Below, one piece after another: positions 17,112 to 30,036 of a stretch of 64,000 nt of DNA. The position numbers and the translations under genes are program-made. Position 1 is the stretch's first letter. Each line of letters begins with the position of its first letter. The notes under the pieces are model-generated. The model ran no database searches, had not been told where the DNA came from, and saw nothing but the letters and a program-made list of their open reading frames with translations. The stretch is from Desulfurococcus sp. (GTDB lineage: Archaea > Thermoproteota > Thermoprotei_A > Sulfolobales > Desulfurococcaceae), in assembly GCA_026626905.1 (NCBI GenBank), contig JAPNUX010000003.1, positions 186,001 to 250,000 on the forward strand, written 5' to 3'.

Positions 17112-18440
17112 ATGGGGGGTATTAGGAATACTATCGCTTTCACAATACTAGTAGTAATGGTGGCATTCGAGGTAGTCGATATGCAGCTACTTCCACCCAA
17201 CTACGTTCAAATAATGCAGGAGTTCGGTGTAACAGAAGCGCAAATGGGGTTTGTCTCATCAATCTTCATAGCTACAAACGCGTTAGCGACAGCAATGTGG
17301 GGATTTCTATCTGACGTGGCAACTAGAAAGAAGCTTCTCCTCATAGGAGTGTATAGTAGTAAGATACCGTGCTTGCTGACAGCGTTCGCACGCAACTACT
17401 GGGAGCTCCTCTTAATAAGATCAATGACAGGTTTATCTATAGGTTCAATAACGCCCATAGCATACACGCTTATAGCAGACTTATATGAGGAGGCTAAGAG
17501 GGGGAGAGGCTACGCGCTTATAGGAGCTAGCTCTGGGCTAGGCACTCTTTTCGGAATGATTCTAGGAGGCTTCATACCAGACTGGCGTTCCCCCTTCATT
17601 TACGCGGCAATTCCTAACATGATACTGGCACCCATATTCTACGTTATATTCCAGGAGCCTAAGAGAGGTATTAGCGAGAGCGCGCTCAGAGAGATATACG
17701 AGAAAGGCTTAGAGTACAGGTATAGAATATCCTGGGAAACCTTGAAATCTAGTCTTAAAACTAGAACGAATATACTGTTGTTTACTCAGGGAGTTATAGG
17801 TACCTTCCCATGGGGTGTCGTGGTCACCTGGCTTATATCCTTTCTGATAGTAGCTAGAGGGATGATTAAGAGTACTGCGACAATAGTACTAATGTTAATC
17901 GGGCTCGCCCAGATCCTAGGCGGTATTATCGGCGGGCTACTAGGAGACTGGGCTGAAAGCAGGAGGCGTGGAGGTAGAGCTGCATTAACAGGTTTAGCTA
18001 TATTCGCAGGTATGATTGCCGCTATATACTTCATAGTGCATCCATGGCCTTCGAAACCTAGTCTCCTCGATTTGCTGCTCATCGCTGCCTACGGGTTTGG
18101 ACTACTACAGGTGGTAAGCTATGCTGGACCGAATGTACGCACAATTCTATCTCAGGTGAATCCACCTGAGGCTAGAGGTACAGTCTTCGGGGTCTTCACA
18201 ATCCTCGATAATGTTGGCTGGGCGATTGGTCCAGTGCTTGATGGACTACTCATAGAGTACTTGAGGAGCCTTGGCTACAGCGATCCACTAGCCTACCAGT
18301 GGGCGCTTATTATCTCAGTGCTAGCATGGCTACCCTGTTCAGCTATATGGGTGTTAATATACAAGCAGTACCCGGTTGACAGGGATAGAATTGCAGGTAT
18401 ACTCGAGGAGAGAGCTAGAAAAATCCTGGGTGAGGCTTAA
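17112..18440 (+). CDS. Major facilitator superfamily transporter
   Basis: A 442-residue, about 12-span MFS carrier. Seen: motif A-like GFLSDVATRKKLLL between spans 2 and 3, SMTGLSIGSITPIAYTLIADLYEEAKRGRGYAL in the spans 4-5 region, and a second motif A-like GGLLGDWAESRRRGGRAAL in the C-terminal half. These resemble Spinster-like/organic-solute MFS proteins. GAGGTG precedes the ATG by seven bases. Its stop codon shares TTAA with the convergent beta-glycosidase gene. A link to sugar uptake is tempting from the glycosidase next door but unproven. Confidence 0.83.
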   Translation: MGGIRNTIAFTILVVMVAFEVVDMQLLPPNYVQIMQEFGVTEAQMGFVSSIFIATNALATAMWGFLSDVATRKKLLLIGVYSSKIPCLLTAFARNYWELLLIRSMTGLSIGSITPIAYTLIADLYEEAKRGRGYALIGASSGLGTLFGMILGGFIPDWRSPFIYAAIPNMILAPIFYVIFQEPKRGISESALREIYEKGLEYRYRISWETLKSSLKTRTNILLFTQGVIGTFPWGVVVTWLISFLIVARGMIKSTATIVLMLIGLAQILGGIIGGLLGDWAESRRRGGRAALTGLAIFAGMIAAIYFIVHPWPSKPSLLDLLLIAAYGFGLLQVVSYAGPNVRTILSQVNPPEARGTVFGVFTILDNVGWAIGPVLDGLLIEYLRSLGYSDPLAYQWALIISVLAWLPCSAIWVLIYKQYPVDRDRIAGILEERARKILGEA

Positions 18441-19711
18441 TCGAGTATCTTTTTCTCACCATACTTCTCTAGAAGTTCATCCCTAATAACGCTGGTTCTA
18501 GCTATCTCACCGTATATGTAAGCGCTTTTACGCGGCTTCCGCTCAAACGTATTGTAGTCGACTTCCACTAAACCAAATCTCTGCTCAAAACCCTTATCCC
18601 ACTCGTAGTTGTCGATGAAACTCCAGTAGAAGTAGCCTTCAACCGGTACACCCTCCTTGACAGCTTTCGAGACGTACTGGAGGTGTCTTATAATGGAGAG
18701 AACTCTTAACTCGTCATCGTCAACAGAAACCCCGTTCTCTGTTATCACCACACTCCTACCGGTTTCACTATAAGCTTTCTCCACAGCCTCATATATCCCA
18801 CGTGGATAGATACAGTAATTCATCTTAGTCCAGAGCCCGGTGTCAAGTGGCTTTACATCAATGAAGAGCTTGAATGGATTCCAGCTATGCTTAACTAGCC
18901 AAGCTGAATAGTAGTTAACTCCAATATAGTCTAGGCTGCTCTCTTTTACTCTAAGCTTTCTCCCAAGGAATTCTGCTGACCCGTTAAGTACTCCTTTAAT
19001 AAAAGACCAATTGTACGATTCATCGATCATGCGTGTCTTCTCAACATCGCGGCGTCTCTCCGAGAATGGTTTAAACGGTATAATGTTCTGTGCTATGCTA
19101 ACTCTCACTCCCCTCTTACTCAGAATATGGTAGGCTTCACTGTGAGCCTCCACAAGGTTTACCAGGGCTTCTCTAGCTTTACCGATGCTCTTGTAGCCTG
19201 GAGGCCACTCGCCTCTCATGAAGCCCATGAGAATGTAGATGTTTGGCTCATTGAAAGTTATCCAGTAGTCTACTCCACGTATACTATCAGCTACTTTCTC
19301 AACAAACCTCAGGAAGAACCTTATGTTATCTCTCTTAATCCATGAGCCTTTGCTGCTAAACCACGCTGGGCTCGTGAAGTGGTGGAGTGTTATCATAGGT
19401 TTAATATTATTCTTGGCGAGGAGGTCTAGTATTTCAGTATACCTGTTAAGAGCATCCTCGTTGAATACATCTTCTCTAGGATATAAGCGGCTCCACTCTA
19501 TGGAGAACCTGTAGGCACGGTAGCCCAGCTTACTCATTAACTCTATATCCTGCTTATACATCTCCCAGTGGTTGCATGCTTTACCCGACTTGTAGGGTAG
19601 TCTACCTTCAACCTCCCACTTCCACCAGTCGTTATATATGTTATCGCCTTCAACCTGGTGTGCTGCAGTAGCTGTCCCAAAGAGGAATCCACTAGGGAAG
19701 ACTACAGGCAT
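18437..19711 (-). CDS. Beta-glycosidase, GH family 1
   Basis: A 424-residue GH1 enzyme, shorter than the roughly 490-residue Sulfolobus LacS. Seen: the N-terminal signature FPSGFLFGTATAAHQVEG (residues 5-22), the acid/base in ITFNEPN (Glu155), the nucleophile in VVITENG (Glu325), and the substrate pocket SFIDNYEWDKGFEQRFGLV near residues 372-390. There is no signal peptide, so it acts in the cytoplasm on beta-linked glucosides or galactosides taken up by transporters. It is convergent with the MFS gene and ends in the same TTAA. Confidence 0.92.
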   Translation of the reverse strand: MPVVFPSGFLFGTATAAHQVEGDNIYNDWWKWEVEGRLPYKSGKACNHWEMYKQDIELMSKLGYRAYRFSIEWSRLYPREDVFNEDALNRYTEILDLLAKNNIKPMITLHHFTSPAWFSSKGSWIKRDNIRFFLRFVEKVADSIRGVDYWITFNEPNIYILMGFMRGEWPPGYKSIGKAREALVNLVEAHSEAYHILSKRGVRVSIAQNIIPFKPFSERRRDVEKTRMIDESYNWSFIKGVLNGSAEFLGRKLRVKESSLDYIGVNYYSAWLVKHSWNPFKLFIDVKPLDTGLWTKMNYCIYPRGIYEAVEKAYSETGRSVVITENGVSVDDDELRVLSIIRHLQYVSKAVKEGVPVEGYFYWSFIDNYEWDKGFEQRFGLVEVDYNTFERKPRKSAYIYGEIARTSVIRDELLEKYGEKKILD

Positions 19712-21629: not shown

Positions 21630-22955
21630 CTACTGGCTTAAGCTGCCTCCCACAGCCCTCTCACGGAGGTACTTACCGAGTAGTAGAAAAACACAGTACT
21701 GCCCGCACATGTTGCATGAGCTTACGTTAACATTAAACTGCTTGTATATTCGTAGAGCACGCTCTCTATCAAACGCGTACTTGAATACCTCGCTCCATTC
21801 AAGCCTTGCCCTGTGAAGGCTCAGCTCGAAATCCCTCCTATAAGCTCTAGCTCCCAGCTTCACTATATCACCGGCGTGCGCTGCAATCCTGGCTGCTATT
21901 AACCCTTCTTTCACCTGCTCTGGTGTGGGGAGACTTAGATGCTCGGCTGGAGTTAGATAGCACAGGAAGTCAGCACCGCTTGCAGCTGCTATCGCTCCAC
22001 CTATAGCGGCAGCGATGTGATCGTAGCCCATAGCTATATCTGTGACTAAGGGTCCCAGCACATAGTAGGGTGCCCCATCAGTTAGCTTTTTCATTAACTT
22101 GATGTTACTGGCTACTTGATCTATTGTCATGTGGCCCGGGCCCTCCACGATCACCTGGACTCCTTTCTCTCTAAGGGATTTAACCTGCCTGGCAGCCTCG
22201 GTGAGTTCTGCTATTTGGAGCTCGTCGTGCTGGTCTACTATACTTCCAGGTCTCAATGCGTCTCCTATACTAACGACTGCATCATACTCAGCGAAGAGCT
22301 CAGCAAGGTAGTCCCAGTGCCTTCTAAACGGGTTCTCCTCATTGTTCTCGAGCATCCATGCAGCTAGCATTGCGCCACCACGGCTTACAATCGGCATGAT
22401 TCTACTGCTTCTAACAGCTCTCCTAGCTAGCTCGAGGCTTATAGCCGAGTGGATGGTCATGAAGGCTACTCCATCCCTTAAGTGCCTTTCTACAATCTCT
22501 AGGAACCAGTCGCTGGGAAACCCAGCGCCCCCGTACCTTCTAACACCTTCAATCCATGCCTGGTAAACTGGTACTGTGCCAACTGGTAGTGGTCTAGCCT
22601 CTCTTATAATTAATCGTCTTATTTCATCTAGATCCCCGCCTATACTTAAATCCATTACTGTATCGGCACCATATTCGACAGCTATCTTTACTTTCTCCCT
22701 CTCCATTTCTACATCCATGACAGTGCCACTGGTGCCTACATTAACATTAACCTTGGTATACAAGCCCCTTCCTACTCCAGTCACCTTTAAATTCTCAAGT
22801 CTATTGTTAGCTATGATAACTATCCTGCCCGAAGCTATTCTATCACGGATCTTCTCAGCTGGAACTCCTTCAAGCTCGCTGAGTTTCCTCATTTCTTCAC
22901 TTATACTTCCAGCTCTAGCTGTAGAGACAATAGTTTTACTCACGGCTTCCACCAT
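21630..22955 (-). CDS. thiC: Phosphomethylpyrimidine synthase ThiC
   Basis: A 441-residue ThiC that would convert aminoimidazole ribotide to the thiamin pyrimidine HMP-P with a radical-SAM cluster. Seen: [21 protein letters not shown] and [19 protein letters not shown] (about 70-110), [29 protein letters not shown], and the C-terminal cysteines Cys414, Cys417 and Cys421 (CNMCGQYC). The last spacing is CX2CX3C as read, one residue shorter than the CX2CX4C of the E. coli/plant form; the short form of the family may share this. The protein is the short type without the long N-terminal domain. It overlaps the 170-residue upstream gene by 20 bases. Confidence 0.92.
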
Positions 22956-23448
22956 GCTTCTCCAGAATGCTCTTATATTCGAGACTCAACTTTCTTAGTT
23001 CCCCGAATATTTCAGGCTTCTCACGGATTAACTCGTCTACGAGCGAGAGGTATCTTGCAACGCGTACCGCGTCTGAGCTTACCTCTACGAGTCTCTCAGC
23101 TCCTACCACCACGTAGTGCTTCTTTTCAACTTTCTCCCCTAGAATATACTCGGCTTCATTAGCTGCTGCATGCAGCATTAAGCAGTGTGGACTGCCATCA
23201 ATAGTGACCACAGTAATACTCCTAGGCTTAGAACTCTTCACGATACTTGCAAGCTTACCATAGTATGCTGAAGACTCGGCTTCAGGGCAGGCAAGTAGAA
23301 CTACTTTACCCTTAGAAAGCTCTCTGAAGAGCCTTGGATTCACGTAGGGCAGGCATGCTGATACGACAAGTAGATCACTATCTTTGAGAAGAGGGGCTTT
23401 AACCCATATACTCCACAAGCCAGGTAGGTGGAGGTCATCCTTCATCAT
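22936..23448 (-). CDS. Hypothetical protein co-transcribed with thiC
   Basis: A protein of about 170 residues with a Rossmann-like alternation of strands and helices: [40 protein letters not shown] and [14 protein letters not shown]. Three cysteines sit at the ends of strands, which might suggest a metal or cluster site, but no recognised motif is present. The start was set at ATG 23448, seven bases after GGTG; GTG 23457 is the alternative. Its 3' end overlaps thiC by 20 bases, so a role in thiamin synthesis or in ThiC cluster supply is a reasonable guess only. I do not know the family. Confidence 0.65.
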
Positions 23449-23592
23449 ACAGAGCACCAGGGTAAATAATCGCTAACACCTTTATAAATCTACTAATAAC
23501 ATAGTTATAATGGCGAGAACACAGCAGATACTCGTAGTTAAATACCTGTAATTACTTAAGAACCCACATAACTATTGATCTAACCTATGGAA

Positions 23593-23640
23593 AAATTTAT
23601 ATAGGGGTCCCATGATACCATGCAGAAGGTGAGGTAGTTG
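23593..23640 (+). promoter_or_regulatory. Promoter and ribosome site of the peptide importer operon
   Basis: An A-rich BRE-like run and TTTATATA (23596-23603) form a strong archaeal promoter. GGTGAGGT (23628-23635) is the ribosome site and supports the unusual TTG start at 23638, since no ATG or GTG is in frame nearby. Confidence 0.6.
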
Positions 23641-25830
23641 AGTCAAGCCCTTAGTAAGACCACAGCTATAATACTAGTATTAATAGTTATTGTTGCTATA
23701 GCTGTGGGAGCATACATCTATACTTCCCAGCTACCCTCCCCTACACCGACACCATCCCCTACTCCAACACCCACGCCTTCTCCCTCTCCAACCCCTACAA
23801 CCACGCCACAGCCCACTAAGCCTCTACACACTCAGGTACTCTACTTGATAGTTAACGATGAAATCACGCGGATACAAATGTATCAGGCGGGTACAGCTGA
23901 TATAGCTGTTGTAACCCCAGCTAGATGGAAGGATGTTAACAACACGCCAGTCGGCAGGTTCCACCTTGTACTTAGATACGACCCTAGTAAGCCACGTCTA
24001 ACCATACAGCACTTGATCCTCAATACCATGAAGGAGCCATTCAACATACCAGAAGTAAGACAAGCACTTGCATGGGCTACACCCTACCAGACTATACTAG
24101 ACCAGGTTTTCGCTGGATTATACACAAGGCTCTACACTATAGTGCCGAAGGGTCTTCAGGGCTATACTGAATACAATATTGTTAAATACGAGTACAATAT
24201 GACAAGGGCGAAGGAGATAATAAATAAGCTTAAGGAGGAGAAAGGCTTCGATCCATCCAAGTACACTATTGAAGTAGCCTACAACCTCGGGAACACTGCA
24301 AGAGCCCAGATAGCAGCATTACTTCAGAATGCTTGGAGCCAGCTCGGATTCAAAGTTATCGTAAACACGTACAACTGGCCACAGTACCTAAGTAAGGTCG
24401 ACAGCTTCGACTTCGATGTAGCAATTCTAGGCTGGATCCCAGACTACCTTGACCCAGATAACTACCTGATGCCCTTCGTATGGGGTGGAGCAGAGTTCAC
24501 CAGTATAGGATACCATGTCGTCACATCCCCGAGCGATGTAGCCAACTACATCTCTAAAGCTGAGAGAGTAATCGATACGGAGAAATACGTTGTAGTTGTA
24601 GGTCCAAGTGGTAGTGGGGCATCTTATACTGGCCCGACAGGTAAACCCATACTCGTAGTAGACTACGTATTAGATGAAGCTAAAACCAGCAAGAACTGGG
24701 AGAACCCAGTCTCAATGGTCACAATTGGAGCACCTGGCTGGAAAGATATACCTGTAAGCGCTCTAGTAAAGCTCTCGAGAACACTACTAGACCCTGAGAT
24801 CAGGACAGCTGTAATTAACGCTGCAGTAATAGTATTCAACAATGAAGCACCAATGATAATGCTAGGCCAGGCTGTGAGGGCCGAGAACTATGGTTCATGG
24901 GTACACGACATGTACTACCCGCTTTCAGCCTTCGCTAGATACGATCTCGTATGGGAGGACCCTGATGCCCCAGTAGTTGATACTGGTGTAGCAGGGGTAA
25001 AGAATGACCCCAACACTATGGTGATAGCTACCATAGGATGGCCTGACACATTCGATCCAGCTAAATCCTACGAGTCTTTCGGCTGGGAGCTATTCTGGCA
25101 AATATACTCGAAGCCTGTAACCTACTACTACGAGAACACTGAGCCGGAGCCAGAGCTCGCTGTAGCATGGGCTTTCAGCAGCGATGAGACAGAACTATAC
25201 CTCATTATTAGAGGAGGTGTTGTAGCATACGATCCATGGAATAACAAGACGTATCCAATAGACGCTACAGACGTGTTATTCAGCATCTGGAGGGTTGCTA
25301 GACTTAACCTACCTGGAGGACCCTCATGGATGGTCTCCGACTTCATAGATGTTAATGCATCCCAGGTTCTAAGTGAGGATGAGTTCGAGCAGATAGCGAG
25401 CAGTGGATTGAAGACTGTGTATCATGGTGAGTTAAAGACTGTTTCAAGCTTAAGTGAGCTGCTATCAATCTTCAACTATACTGGTAGCACAGCTGGAGTC
25501 GTTAAGTTTAAGCTGAAATTCCCGTACCCGCCGATACTCCATATATTCACAACAGCTGTTGGCAGCATTATCCCAATGGAGTATGCTCTAGGAGACAAGT
25601 ACCAGCAGGCACTAGCTGACAGCAACAACGGTAAGAACCCGAGTGCGTGGGCTAAATACGTTATTGAGGGAGAAGATGATGCTACCTATAAGCTACTAAG
25701 GGATAAGCCTGTGAGCACTGGCCCCTACTATATAGCCGACTACAAGGAGGACAGCTATATCCTGCTGAAGCTCAACCCATACTACTGGAATGCCACAATG
25801 TGGTATGAGCTCTACGGGTTCAGGCCATGA
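23638..25830 (+). CDS. Peptide/oligosaccharide ABC transporter binding protein, SBP_bac_5 family, circularly permuted
   Basis: A 730-residue surface protein. Residues 8-28 are a membrane anchor, 33-62 a Pro/Thr/Ser linker. The rest carries the family-5 fold in swapped order. Residues about 66-450 match the usual second half: QMYQAGTADIA (80-90), VRQALAWATPY (140-150), and ILGWIPDYLDPDNY (from 263). Residues about 460-730 match the usual first half: GWPDTFDPAKSY (about 468-478), PELAVAWAFSSD, DATDVLFSIWR (about 542), FKLKFPYPP, and STGPYYIADY...LKLNPYYW (about 692-715). The protein stops exactly where the normal fold would continue into residue 66. It would deliver peptides or sugars to the permeases downstream. 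Confidence 0.85.
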   Translation: MSQALSKTTAIILVLIVIVAIAVGAYIYTSQLPSPTPTPSPTPTPTPSPSPTPTTTPQPTKPLHTQVLYLIVNDEITRIQMYQAGTADIAVVTPARWKDVNNTPVGRFHLVLRYDPSKPRLTIQHLILNTMKEPFNIPEVRQALAWATPYQTILDQVFAGLYTRLYTIVPKGLQGYTEYNIVKYEYNMTRAKEIINKLKEEKGFDPSKYTIEVAYNLGNTARAQIAALLQNAWSQLGFKVIVNTYNWPQYLSKVDSFDFDVAILGWIPDYLDPDNYLMPFVWGGAEFTSIGYHVVTSPSDVANYISKAERVIDTEKYVVVVGPSGSGASYTGPTGKPILVVDYVLDEAKTSKNWENPVSMVTIGAPGWKDIPVSALVKLSRTLLDPEIRTAVINAAVIVFNNEAPMIMLGQAVRAENYGSWVHDMYYPLSAFARYDLVWEDPDAPVVDTGVAGVKNDPNTMVIATIGWPDTFDPAKSYESFGWELFWQIYSKPVTYYYENTEPEPELAVAWAFSSDETELYLIIRGGVVAYDPWNNKTYPIDATDVLFSIWRVARLNLPGGPSWMVSDFIDVNASQVLSEDEFEQIASSGLKTVYHGELKTVSSLSELLSIFNYTGSTAGVVKFKLKFPYPPILHIFTTAVGSIIPMEYALGDKYQQALADSNNGKNPSAWAKYVIEGEDDATYKLLRDKPVSTGPYYIADYKEDSYILLKLNPYYWNATMWYELYGFRP

Positions 25831-25905: not shown

Positions 25906-26964
25906 ATGGGGCTTGGCAGGTTTCTTGTTAGAAGGGTGTTTACATTCATACCTACAGTTATAGGTGTGCTCTTCATAACCTACATTATAGCCTATGCTAT
26001 TCCAGCCGACCCTGTGCGAGCTTGGATTGGAGAGAAAAACATGAATCCTGAGGCCCTTGAGCAGATCCGCGTTAAGTATAGGTTTGATGCACCCTGGTAT
26101 GAGCAGTTTGCGTTTCTCGTTGGAAGCCTCCTCTCAGGTAACCTAGAAGACCCGGTTCTTCACAGAAATGTTTTCGATGAATTATTCTACAGGTTCCCTA
26201 TAACAGTTGAAGTAGCAATTGTCGGCTTTCTCTTCACAGTTATCATAGGAATACCATTAGGCTTCATAGCAGCCTTGAAGAAGGATACATGGGTAGACTT
26301 CCTTGTAAGAGTATTTGCTTTAGTTGGCAGCTCGCTACCAGCCTTCGTTCTCTACTACTTCCTAATACTATTCCTCTTCACATACCTCCATACAACAGTT
26401 CTAGCTGGAATACCCTTCCCCTCCAAAGCCTGCATGTCAACTCTTTCAGCTCTACCAGGAAGGATACCAGTTCTCGGCCACTTAGTTTCAGCTATTGGAA
26501 GCGTACCTATGTTTGGTGCAGCCATGTGTGGCGAGTGGAGCGTGGTAACTGATACTTTCAGGAGGCTCTACCTGCCCGGGCTAGCCTTAGGGCTACTGAA
26601 TGGTGGATTCATAGCTAGAATAGTGAGGAACAGTCTGCTCGATAACCTCAGCCAAGAGTACATTCAGTACGCTAAAGCTAGAGGCTTAAGGAAGACTAGG
26701 GTGTGGATGCATGCATTAAAGAATGCATCAATCCCAGTAGTAACAGTTCTTGGAGCTTTATTCGGAGGATTGCTATCTGGAGCTATAGTAGCTGAAACAG
26801 TTTTCAATATACCTGGAATTGGAAGATACATCTACAATGCTATAACAAGACTTAACTTCCCCGCGATAATAGGTGGAACATTCCTAGTCGCCATAGTATA
26901 CGTTACTATAAATCTAATCATAGACATAGTTTATGCAATCCTGGATCCGAGGATTAGGTACTAG
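25906..26964 (+). CDS. Dipeptide/oligopeptide ABC permease, DppB-like
   Basis: A 352-residue permease with six or more spans. Seen: the N-terminal signature FLVRRVFTFIPTVIGVLFITYIIAY, the extracytoplasmic loop before TVEVAIVGFLFTVIIGIPLG, and the EAA coupling loop YAKARGLRKTRVWMHALKNASIPVV (about 257-281) followed by LSGAIVAETVFNIPGIGR. The loop insert around residues 165-205, between the third and fourth spans, contains several cysteines (SKACMS, GAAMCGEW) that could form a disulfide outside the cell. It is the first of two membrane subunits of this importer. Confidence 0.92.
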   Translation: MGLGRFLVRRVFTFIPTVIGVLFITYIIAYAIPADPVRAWIGEKNMNPEALEQIRVKYRFDAPWYEQFAFLVGSLLSGNLEDPVLHRNVFDELFYRFPITVEVAIVGFLFTVIIGIPLGFIAALKKDTWVDFLVRVFALVGSSLPAFVLYYFLILFLFTYLHTTVLAGIPFPSKACMSTLSALPGRIPVLGHLVSAIGSVPMFGAAMCGEWSVVTDTFRRLYLPGLALGLLNGGFIARIVRNSLLDNLSQEYIQYAKARGLRKTRVWMHALKNASIPVVTVLGALFGGLLSGAIVAETVFNIPGIGRYIYNAITRLNFPAIIGGTFLVAIVYVTINLIIDIVYAILDPRIRY

Positions 26965-26974
26965 GTGGTAGACC

Positions 26975-28069
26975 GTGGAGATAATCTATAAGCTGCTAGT
27001 TAAAGCTATAGATGGCTACGCATCCCTAAGGAATAAGCTGAGTAGAGGGTGGAGTGAGAGAAATAGCTCTAAGATACGTGAATGGAAGCTCATGGCTTAC
27101 GCGTTAAGTAAGAGCAGGATAGGCGTACTAGGCGGTATACTCGTGTTCATTGAAGTAGTACTAGCTATTATAGGGCCATACCTAGCCTGGCAGCCATACT
27201 GGGTGTACCCAGTTATAGAGAACCCTGGATTAAAGCTACTACCACCATGTATACCACCCTGGTGTACTGGGCACCCGCTACTTGGAACTGATGAATGGGG
27301 AAGAGACCTGCTGTCCATGACGCTGGTTGGCATTAGGATATCATTCGTGATCTCAATAATGGTTGTAGTGCTAGGAGCCCCTCTAGGTATTCTACTCGGT
27401 TTAATAGCAGGGTACAAAGGCGGTGTTATTGATGAGATCATAATGAGGCTGACAGATATATTCATGGCTTTCCCAGCACTGGTGCTCGCAATAGCTTTCG
27501 CTGCAGTACTACCCAGCAGGTTCAGACTCTTCCTGGAATCAAACACTATTGCGAGAAACCTTATAGCAGGGCTACTCGGCTTAAGAGCCGAGGAATACCC
27601 TCAGATAGCCGCGCTCCTAGCATTATGGGTAGCAATGATCATAGTGTGGTGGCCAGGATACGCTAGAGTAGTTAGAGGGAGCGCGCTGAGTGCTAGAGAA
27701 CACACCTACGTAGAGGCTGCTAAAGTCCTAGGTCTCTCAACGTGGCGGATACTCTTCAAGCATATGCTACCTAACATTATCTCGCCTATCATAGTCATGA
27801 TGACATTTGATATAGCTACTGCAACACTCTTTGCTGCAACCCTCTCCTTCCTAGGCTTGGGTCCCCAGGAGCCTGTCCCGGAGCTAGGCTTCATGATATC
27901 TAAAGCAGGCAACTGGTTCCCTGAAAGCAGCTGGCATATAGTATTATTCCTAGGCTTAGTCCTCCTCTTCATAGCTTTAGGCTGGAACCTCCTCGGGGAT
28001 GCATTAAGAGACGTGCTAGACCCTCGAACTAGGAGGGCAATAGAGTTTAGTGAGGGTGAGAGGAAGTGA
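26975..28069 (+). CDS. Dipeptide/oligopeptide ABC permease, DppC-like
   Basis: A 364-residue permease starting at GTG. An amphipathic N-terminal region of about 40 residues precedes the first span, then the family motif LLGTDEWGRDLLSMTLVGIRISF (about 100-122) and the EAA loop EAAKVLGLSTWRILFKHMLPN (about 247-267). The extracytoplasmic loop contains CIPPWCTGHPLLG with two cysteines, a probable disulfide. It pairs with the DppB-like subunit ten bases upstream. The end overlaps the first ATPase gene by four bases (GTGA). Confidence 0.92.
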   Translation: MEIIYKLLVKAIDGYASLRNKLSRGWSERNSSKIREWKLMAYALSKSRIGVLGGILVFIEVVLAIIGPYLAWQPYWVYPVIENPGLKLLPPCIPPWCTGHPLLGTDEWGRDLLSMTLVGIRISFVISIMVVVLGAPLGILLGLIAGYKGGVIDEIIMRLTDIFMAFPALVLAIAFAAVLPSRFRLFLESNTIARNLIAGLLGLRAEEYPQIAALLALWVAMIIVWWPGYARVVRGSALSAREHTYVEAAKVLGLSTWRILFKHMLPNIISPIIVMMTFDIATATLFAATLSFLGLGPQEPVPELGFMISKAGNWFPESSWHIVLFLGLVLLFIALGWNLLGDALRDVLDPRTRRAIEFSEGERK

Positions 28070-29058
28070 GCTTGAATGAGAATATAGTTTTAAGTGTGAG
28101 AGGCCTAGAAGTCAAGTTCTACACTTACGCTGGGGTAGTACACGCTGTATCAGGTGTCTCATTCGATGTAGGTAAAGGCGAGATTGTTGCACTGGTAGGT
28201 GAAACTGGATGCGGTAAATCTGTGACTACAAGAGCTATCACTAAGCTAATAGACCCGCCTGGGAGAATAGAAGGAGGTGTAGCCTTATTCAGGAGGAGAG
28301 ATGGACGTATCGTAGACCTCCTCAGCTTAAGTGACGAAGAAATACGAGATATTAGGGGTAATGAAATAGCATATATATTCCAGGATCCAACGTCAGCGTT
28401 AGACCCGCTATACACGATCGGCCACCACTTCTACGAGACTATGGCTGATCACAGTAGAGTGAGCAAGAAGACAGCGTTAGATCGAGCCATAAGCCTCCTC
28501 AGAGAGACACTAGTGCCGAGTCCTGAAGCAAGAGTGAAAAACTATCCTCACGAGTTATCCGGGGGAATGAGGCAGAGAGCCGTAATATCCATAGGCTTAA
28601 GCAATAACCCTGTCCTGCTTATAGCAGACGAGCCTACAACAAACCTGGATGTCACTATACAGGCTCAAATACTAGAGCTAATAAAGGAGCTTCAAGCCAG
28701 GCATGGAATGAGCGTTATACTCATAACACATAATCTAGGCGTAGTCGCTGAAGTAGCTCACAGAGTCTACGTTATGTATGCAGGTAAAATAGTTGAGGAG
28801 GCAACAGTAGAGGAGCTCTTCGAGGATCCCCAGCACCCCTACACCAGGCTGCTCCTAAAGACAGTCCCTGACCCAACAAGGAGGATTGAACGATTAGAAT
28901 CTATTCCCGGCACGGTCCCAAGCCTCATAAACCCAGCACCTGGATGCAGATTTAGAGATAGATGCCCATTTGCCTTCGAGGAGTGCTCGAAGGAGCCTCC
29001 TCTAATCGAGGTGAGTAAAACACATAGAGTTTACTGCTGGCTTCACGCTAAGAGGTGA
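28066..29058 (+). CDS. Dipeptide/oligopeptide ABC ATPase, DppD-like
   Basis: A 330-residue ATPase. Seen: Walker A GETGCGKSVTT (about 44-54), Q-loop YIFQDPTSALDP, signature LSGGMRQRAVI and Walker B LLIADEPTTNLDVT. The oligopeptide-type C-terminal extension follows, with the cluster-type cysteines in PAPGCRFRDRCPFAFEECSKEPP and a final CWLHA. In this subfamily the cysteine-rich tail can hold a [4Fe-4S] cluster. It starts at GTG within the GTGA overlap with the permease. Confidence 0.93.
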   Translation: MSLNENIVLSVRGLEVKFYTYAGVVHAVSGVSFDVGKGEIVALVGETGCGKSVTTRAITKLIDPPGRIEGGVALFRRRDGRIVDLLSLSDEEIRDIRGNEIAYIFQDPTSALDPLYTIGHHFYETMADHSRVSKKTALDRAISLLRETLVPSPEARVKNYPHELSGGMRQRAVISIGLSNNPVLLIADEPTTNLDVTIQAQILELIKELQARHGMSVILITHNLGVVAEVAHRVYVMYAGKIVEEATVEELFEDPQHPYTRLLLKTVPDPTRRIERLESIPGTVPSLINPAPGCRFRDRCPFAFEECSKEPPLIEVSKTHRVYCWLHAKR

Positions 29059-29064
29059 TAGGCT

Positions 29065-30036
29065 GTGAGCCAAGTGCTCGTAGAAGCAGTCAACTTAAAA
29101 AAGTACTTTAAGGTTAGAGGGCTATTTTCAACAAAGCTTGTGAAAGCAGTCGACGATGTATCATTCAAGATATACCGGGGAGAGACCTTCGGGCTTGTAG
29201 GTGAGAGCGGTTGTGGTAAAACCACTCTCGGCAGGCTTCTACTACTGTTACACGAGCCGACAAGTGGGAGCATATTCTTCGAAGGTAAGGATATAGCTAG
29301 ACTTAAGGGTAGAGAGCTCAAGGAGTTCCGTAGAAACGCTCAAATGGTCTTCCAGGACCCGCATACATCTCTTAACCCTAGGATGACCATAGCTGAGATA
29401 CTCGAGGAGCCTGTAAGAGAGCATAATATCGAGGTAAAAGGAGGTATTGAGGACTTTCTAGCTGAACATATGAAGCTCGTAGGATTAAACCCTGAGCTAC
29501 TCTACAGGTACCCTCACGAGTTGAGTGGAGGACAGAAGCAGAGGGTGGCTATCCTCAGGGCATTAATATTGAAACCGAAGTTCATGGTGCTAGATGAACC
29601 GACTTCAGCACTAGACGTATCAGTTCAAGCACAGGTCTTAGAGCTTCTACGAGACCTCCAGAGGAAGTTTAATTTAACATACCTGTTCATATCCCATGAC
29701 ATCTCAGTGGTAAAATACATGAGCAATAGGATAGGAGTAATGTATCTAGGCAAAATCGTGGAGATAGGGGATTCAGAGCAAGTATTCAATAACCCGCTAC
29801 ACCCATACACACAGATGCTCTTCTCAGCAATCCCCATACCCAACCCGAAGATTGCTAGAAGCAGAAAGAGGATTAAACTGGAAGGCGAGCCGCCTTCACC
29901 AATAAACCCGCCGGCTGGATGCCGCTTCCACCCAAGGTGCCCTCTAGCCAGGGATATCTGCAGGAGGGAGGAGCCACCACTAGTAGAAGTAGAACCAGGC
30001 CACTACGTTGCATGCTGGCTGTACCACCGTAAATAA
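29065..30036 (+). CDS. Dipeptide/oligopeptide ABC ATPase, DppF-like
   Basis: A 323-residue ATPase, the second of the pair. Seen: Walker A GESGCGKTTLG (about 48-58), Q-loop MVFQDPHTSLNP, signature LSGGQKQRVAI, Walker B FMVLDEPTSALDVS and the H-loop LFISHDISVV. The C-terminal extension PPAGCRFHPRCPLARDICRREEPP ends in ACWLYH, giving the same four-cysteine arrangement as its partner. It starts at GTG six bases after the preceding stop and closes the importer operon. Confidence 0.93.
   Translation: MSQVLVEAVNLKKYFKVRGLFSTKLVKAVDDVSFKIYRGETFGLVGESGCGKTTLGRLLLLLHEPTSGSIFFEGKDIARLKGRELKEFRRNAQMVFQDPHTSLNPRMTIAEILEEPVREHNIEVKGGIEDFLAEHMKLVGLNPELLYRYPHELSGGQKQRVAILRALILKPKFMVLDEPTSALDVSVQAQVLELLRDLQRKFNLTYLFISHDISVVKYMSNRIGVMYLGKIVEIGDSEQVFNNPLHPYTQMLFSAIPIPNPKIARSRKRIKLEGEPPSPINPPAGCRFHPRCPLARDICRREEPPLVEVEPGHYVACWLYHRK

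Follow-up and report, generated by a model that had tools for sequence, protein, structure and literature searches.

A circularly permuted family-5 substrate-binding protein of an archaeal DppBCDF operon and its probable serial origin

The gene at positions 23638–25830 of the window (the whole 64,000-nucleotide stretch of Desulfurococcus sp. DNA that was analysed) encodes a 730-amino-acid substrate-binding protein (SBP) of family 5. Profile coordinates, relatives, phylogenetic trees and a confident structure model support its identification as a circularly permuted family-5 fold. The protein very probably serves the DppBCDF importer encoded beside it and originated serially, from the canonical order through a tail-first arrangement (type C) to its own arrangement (type A), from which type B was derived. 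Archaeal family-5 proteins probably shift their chain ends repeatedly, with at least three successive openings in one operon lineage (C, A, and B) and openings at other points elsewhere (D, E, F, and G). The tether and the pairing with the permease would be kept, while the attachment site changes.

Segment order and predicted structure of the protein

The features of the gene, all on the + strand, are as follows:
23597–23634, TATA-like stretch tttatata (~23597) and SD-like GGTGAGG (23628–23634), 5' of the TTG start; read directly from the sequence
23638–25830, permuted family-5 substrate-binding protein, 730 aa, order middle, insert, tail, N-half; from Pfam, NCBIfam and PDB order and same-order relatives
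23656–23721, N-terminal hydrophobic anchor, aa 7–28; from the sequence and a survey of N-termini, with Q-A-LSK in place of a K/R-A/G-LSK-like motif
23722–23820, Pro/Thr/Ser linker, aa ~29–61; from the sequence
23821–24513, middle segment M, aa 62–292, PF00496 profile 145–361, containing D269; from profile, PDB and segment HMM searches
24535–24723, insert I, aa 300–362; absent from canonical relatives, hhalign match to joined type C ends
24733–24972, tail T, aa 366–445, the C-terminus in the normal fold; from segment HMM order
24973–25008, ring-closing linker of ~12 aa, aa 446–457, from the old C-terminus to the old N-terminus; from the sequence and segment HMMs
25009–25803, N-half N, aa 458–722, PF00496 profile 1–142; from Pfam and segment HMMs

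The open reading frame starts with TTG, and the TATA-like stretch is positioned about 35–40 bases upstream of it. A first half of the protein missed upstream, which the preliminary description had named as a possible refutation, is ruled out, because a TAG stop codon abuts the TTG and the gap of ~180 bp upstream of 23638 contains no SBP frame. Further upstream, a 173-aa protein encoded at 22936–23457 adjoins thiC and matches no Pfam family at E ≤ 1e-5.

The Pfam profile PF00496 (SBP_bac_5) matches the protein significantly (E = 1.6e-56), and its whole length is covered, with aa 61–281 corresponding to profile positions 145–361 and the C-terminal 276 aa to positions 1–142. The segments do not follow the canonical N-to-C order, and the protein is a permuted relative of SBP_bac_5 and not a canonical member. 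Positions 288–445 of the NCBIfam profile DppA_dipep are located on aa 119–278. Sequence searches of the PDB gave the same inverted order: the start of DppA is matched by aa 458–552 and 690–719, and its middle by aa 118–278. Family 5 is the only family matched in the profile and PDB searches, and the Type I sugar-binding fold is not among the matches.

Segment HMMs for the middle (M), insert (I), tail (T), and N-half (N) resolve the order M[62–292]-I[300–362]-T[366–445]-N[458–722], with one copy of each and no second copy of any segment in the protein. When the core is rotated in silico, the hits of the HMM of canonical archaeal relatives become collinear, and the early strand, middle, and tail form one hit of 107.8 bits, compared to 94.1 bits for the unrotated sequence. 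The old ends are joined, new ends are opened, and every segment is kept once, as in a circular permutation. The new ends are at the boundary between the middle and the N-half, after NPYYW, which in the alignment falls within the interval ~236–245 of the DppA precursor. From the known domain limits of DppA, we take this cut to be in the N-lobe. The reversed order of the halves that the preliminary description had proposed is confirmed by the Pfam, NCBIfam, and PDB coordinates and by the rotation, and its joining segment, placed at about residues 445–460, is found close by at aa 446–457. It had overlooked the ~60-residue insert (aa 300–362) between the middle and the tail.

An AlphaFold2 model of aa 56–730, calculated with 27 same-order sequences, has a pLDDT of 85.5 and a pTM of 0.82, and the structure prediction proposed as a check thus yields a confident model of the chain in permuted order. 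The top Foldseek hits of the model in the PDB all belong to family 5 (DppA, AapF, AppA, OppA, and NikA). They span ~380 columns with a target TM of ~0.5 and cover about three quarters of the target. Partial coverage of this kind is what would be expected for a permuted fold from an aligner that follows sequence order only. For a type B protein, with no more than 10 close sequences to draw on, AlphaFold reached a pLDDT of 66, and this poor model was left out of the analysis.

Arrangements of archaeal family-5 proteins and their history

The same order occurs, at 82% identity, in a genome of the same genus assembled in one contig (locus L008 of G001). A scan of genome contigs identified several dozen further type A loci, 45–76% identical, in Desulfurococcales, Sulfolobales-labelled, and Thermofilum records; the search of other Desulfurococcales that had been suggested was thus productive. 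A profile of the junction between tail and N-half has matches in 45 of 398 Thermoproteota genomes (26 of 164 genera). The matches are contiguous in all but two of the 45, G067 with the N part only and G035 cut by the end of a contig. Another single-contig genome of the genus, G002, is without the permuted gene and contains a canonical family-5 protein, and the presence of the gene therefore varies within the genus.

Among the archaeal family-5 proteins covered by the survey, the ring is opened at four regions. In the canonical type, PF00496 positions 1–366 are continuous (L173 and L083). The 730-aa protein represents type A, which is cut at position ~143 of the profile. The other ARRANGEMENTS were defined by Pfam coordinates on parts of representative proteins and by segment orders. 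Type F is cut at ~190 (~185/194), behind a CARDB domain (L156–L159), and types D (L064) and E (L090) are cut at ~287 (~280–288). Types B, C, and G are tail-first, with the cut at the junction of the middle and the tail. Permutants of the last three types match PF00496 in normal order and escape annotation because their moved tail lies outside the profile.

Several of these proteins have additional features. L156–L159 are Thermoproteota proteins in which the CARDB-like domain is positioned between the anchor and the family-5 fold, with DppB directly downstream. The tail-first protein L078:7914–10298 has a Sec-like signal and an extra C-terminal region of ~150 aa that is unlike other type C proteins. 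The type E protein (L090:7884–9629, 582 aa, from a DHVE2-group archaeon) is cut at ~287 and ends in a short unrelated C-terminal tail. Canonical proteins related to it, from the same archaeal group, share 72–91% identity with its N segment, a search of six related genomes found one copy only, and no permease was found adjoining the gene. Type E is apparently a single, recent permutation, with misassembly as an alternative.

The SBP trees were built after rotating all sequences to the canonical order. Types A, B, C, and D cluster in a single clade (support 100) separate from their canonical relatives, and E, F, and G are placed outside it, together with or close to proteins of canonical order. 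Type B is nested within type A (98/96), and B groups with L048 (93/95). Type A is monophyletic in none of 200 bootstrap trees, and the AU test rejects an A clade (p = 0.025); a C clade is not rejected (p = 0.29). In the tree of the DppB permease, which is a separate gene, C is basal and paraphyletic, A is paraphyletic, and B is nested beside the same A genomes. Type C is at the base of A and B in both trees.

The insert I, ~60 aa in type A, is common to types A, B, and D and matches no Pfam family. It corresponds to the C-terminal tail of type C joined to the N-terminal segment of type C (hhalign probability 97.5, E 8e-12). Profile-profile comparison with the type C tail alone gives E 1.2e-9, and the single-sequence HMM signal of the insert as a scar is weak (best 9.4 bits versus a shuffle maximum of 6.6). 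The cut of type B falls inside the insert, about 20–25 residues from the type C cut.

Because the trees are nested and the insert matches the joined ends of type C, we infer the succession canonical, C, A, B. A canonical protein would have become tail-first (type C), the ends of type C would have been fused and the ring reopened to give type A, and a further opening of type A, within the scar of that fusion, would have produced type B. Each permutation probably proceeded by tandem gene duplication and loss of the outer parts, the duplication being the presumed step. Since the monophyly of C is not rejected, the polarity of C before A is argued from the scar together with the DppB tree and parsimony.

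Three other explanations of the permuted order were considered. Many of the relatives are metagenome-assembled genomes, as could be expected of an assembly or annotation artefact. However, open frames are conserved in many independent assemblies, and the order recurs in one-contig genomes beyond that of the same genus. An assembly error is excluded because the same-genus contig and several dozen loci share the order, and an artefact of either kind has next to no probability. The split of the PF00496 match into two stretches of one protein could also reflect a fusion of two half-proteins of different origin, or tandem partial domains. This is highly improbable, as the stretches are complementary (145–361, then 1–142) and each is single, the chain gives one confident model, and rotation brings the sequence into collinearity with the canonical HMM. 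Two tandem partial domains are rejected for the complementarity and single copy of the segments, and alignment of both halves to the profile, which had been put forward as a test, shows no tandem domains in normal order. Independent origins do occur, as the positions of E, F, and G near canonical-order proteins indicate. It is nevertheless quite improbable that every permuted type goes back separately to a canonical ancestor, given the single A–D clade, the nesting of B within A for both the SBP and the permease, and the shared insert with its likeness to joined C ends. The serial origin of a single permuted fold is preferred.

Comparison with known binding proteins

Circular permutation in natural proteins usually turns up as a single ancient event, and the DNA amino-methyltransferases are a further family in which several permuted classes occur in nature. 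Here, a single family combines several arrangements with a canonical outgroup, a second record in the co-inherited permease gene, and a scar that orders the events. The duplication-and-trimming route to permutation becomes testable, as does the question of which tether point of the flytrap matters for docking. Annotation overlooks permutants such as B, C, and G.

Canonical SBP_bac_5 (cluster C) proteins, namely DppA, OppA, NikA, and the archaeal L173 and L083, share the fold segments and the type of operon partner with type A, and the archaeal paralogues also share the type of anchor. They differ in the order of segments (N-half, middle, tail), the continuous profile match, and the absence of the insert. 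A literature search, with most subscription journals outside it, found no published permuted member of family 5, in agreement with the preliminary description; the one permuted binding protein that it returned, TpMglB-2, belongs to a different class. This protein (Tp0684, from Treponema pallidum) is presented, in the portion of the article used here, as a 'Type Ic' circularly permuted sugar-binding protein, and the authors of that work proposed that its permutation and its tethering are connected (PMC4990184). Like type A, it is a natural circular permutant and a tethered ABC binding protein; its fold and binding are retained, according to the same portion. In contrast to the archaeal family-5 (cluster C) proteins with at least four cut regions, it is a bacterial Type I (cluster B) sugar fold with one arrangement. 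Bindosome proteins, which have class III signal peptides, are likewise binding proteins with a pilin-like anchor at the N-terminus; the described examples bind sugars, and permutation is not mentioned in the part of the source drawn on here (PMC2910488).

Operon, ligand, and tether

The permuted gene is the first of a DppBCDF operon, with two BPD_transp_1 genes and then two ABC_tran and oligo_HPY genes directly downstream (all + strand):
25906–26964, DppB-like permease; E43-K44 align with scoop residues E41-R42 of E. coli DppB
26975–28069, DppC-like permease; from domain search
28066–29058, DppD-like ATPase (ABC_tran and oligo_HPY); from domain search
29065–30036, DppF-like ATPase (ABC_tran and oligo_HPY); from domain search

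Where the flanking sequence is long enough, most loci of types A, B, C, F, and G have DppB ~0–200 bp downstream; an adjoining DppB was not detected at some A and B loci. In DppA, D436 binds the amino group of the peptide, and R383 binds the carboxylate of the dipeptide (PMC12136057). The equivalent of D436 in the permuted protein is D269, which is invariant in the type A alignment, so the Asp of DppA is kept, and the Arg is replaced, with Y215 at the position of R383. The score against DppA_dipep is 98.7 bits, compared to the equivalog cut-off of 1005 bits. The ligand may differ from a dipeptide because of the Tyr at the R383 position, and may carry an amino group. The family and the operon make a peptide the likely substrate.

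In its most likely role, the protein is an ordinary flytrap that binds substrate for the DppBCDF importer of its own operon, with a peptide as the putative ligand. It would close on the ligand in the normal Venus flytrap manner and hand it over to the adjacent DppB/DppC, with docking and hand-over probably conventional judging by D269 and E43-K44 of DppB. It is less likely, though by no means negligibly so, that the folded permuted protein mainly binds ligands or acts as a scaffold at the surface, as in a bindosome, or serves an oligosaccharide importer. Such a role would fit the class III signal motifs of homologues, a feature of archaeal sugar-binding proteins in the part of the source considered (PMC2910488), the Tyr in place of R383, and a GH1 glycosidase encoded near the operon at 18437–19711, which is a possible hint at the substrate. 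However, the gene heads a DppBCDF operon whose ATPases have oligo_HPY domains, the D436 equivalent is invariant, and the DppB scoop residues are retained as E-K, all of which favor the importer-bound flytrap protein.

All types, the canonical one included, have a hydrophobic N-terminal segment, in most cases followed by a Thr/Pro/Ser linker. Many homologues contain a K/R-A/G-LSK-like class III (pilin-like) signal motif. In the 730-aa protein, the hydrophobic segment and the Pro/Thr linker most likely form the tether. The preliminary description had placed this anchor next to a loop of the first lobe and not at the usual N-terminus; an anchor and Thr/Pro linker of the same kind occur in canonical-order archaeal paralogues, which means that the tether is kept and that the change concerns the point of the ring to which it is attached. 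From alignment and the known domain limits of DppA, the tethered point would be in the N-lobe in type A and in the C-lobe in types B–G. At the C-terminal end of the type D protein L064:7899–10163, RKKEE follows another hydrophobic segment, which suggests anchors at both ends.
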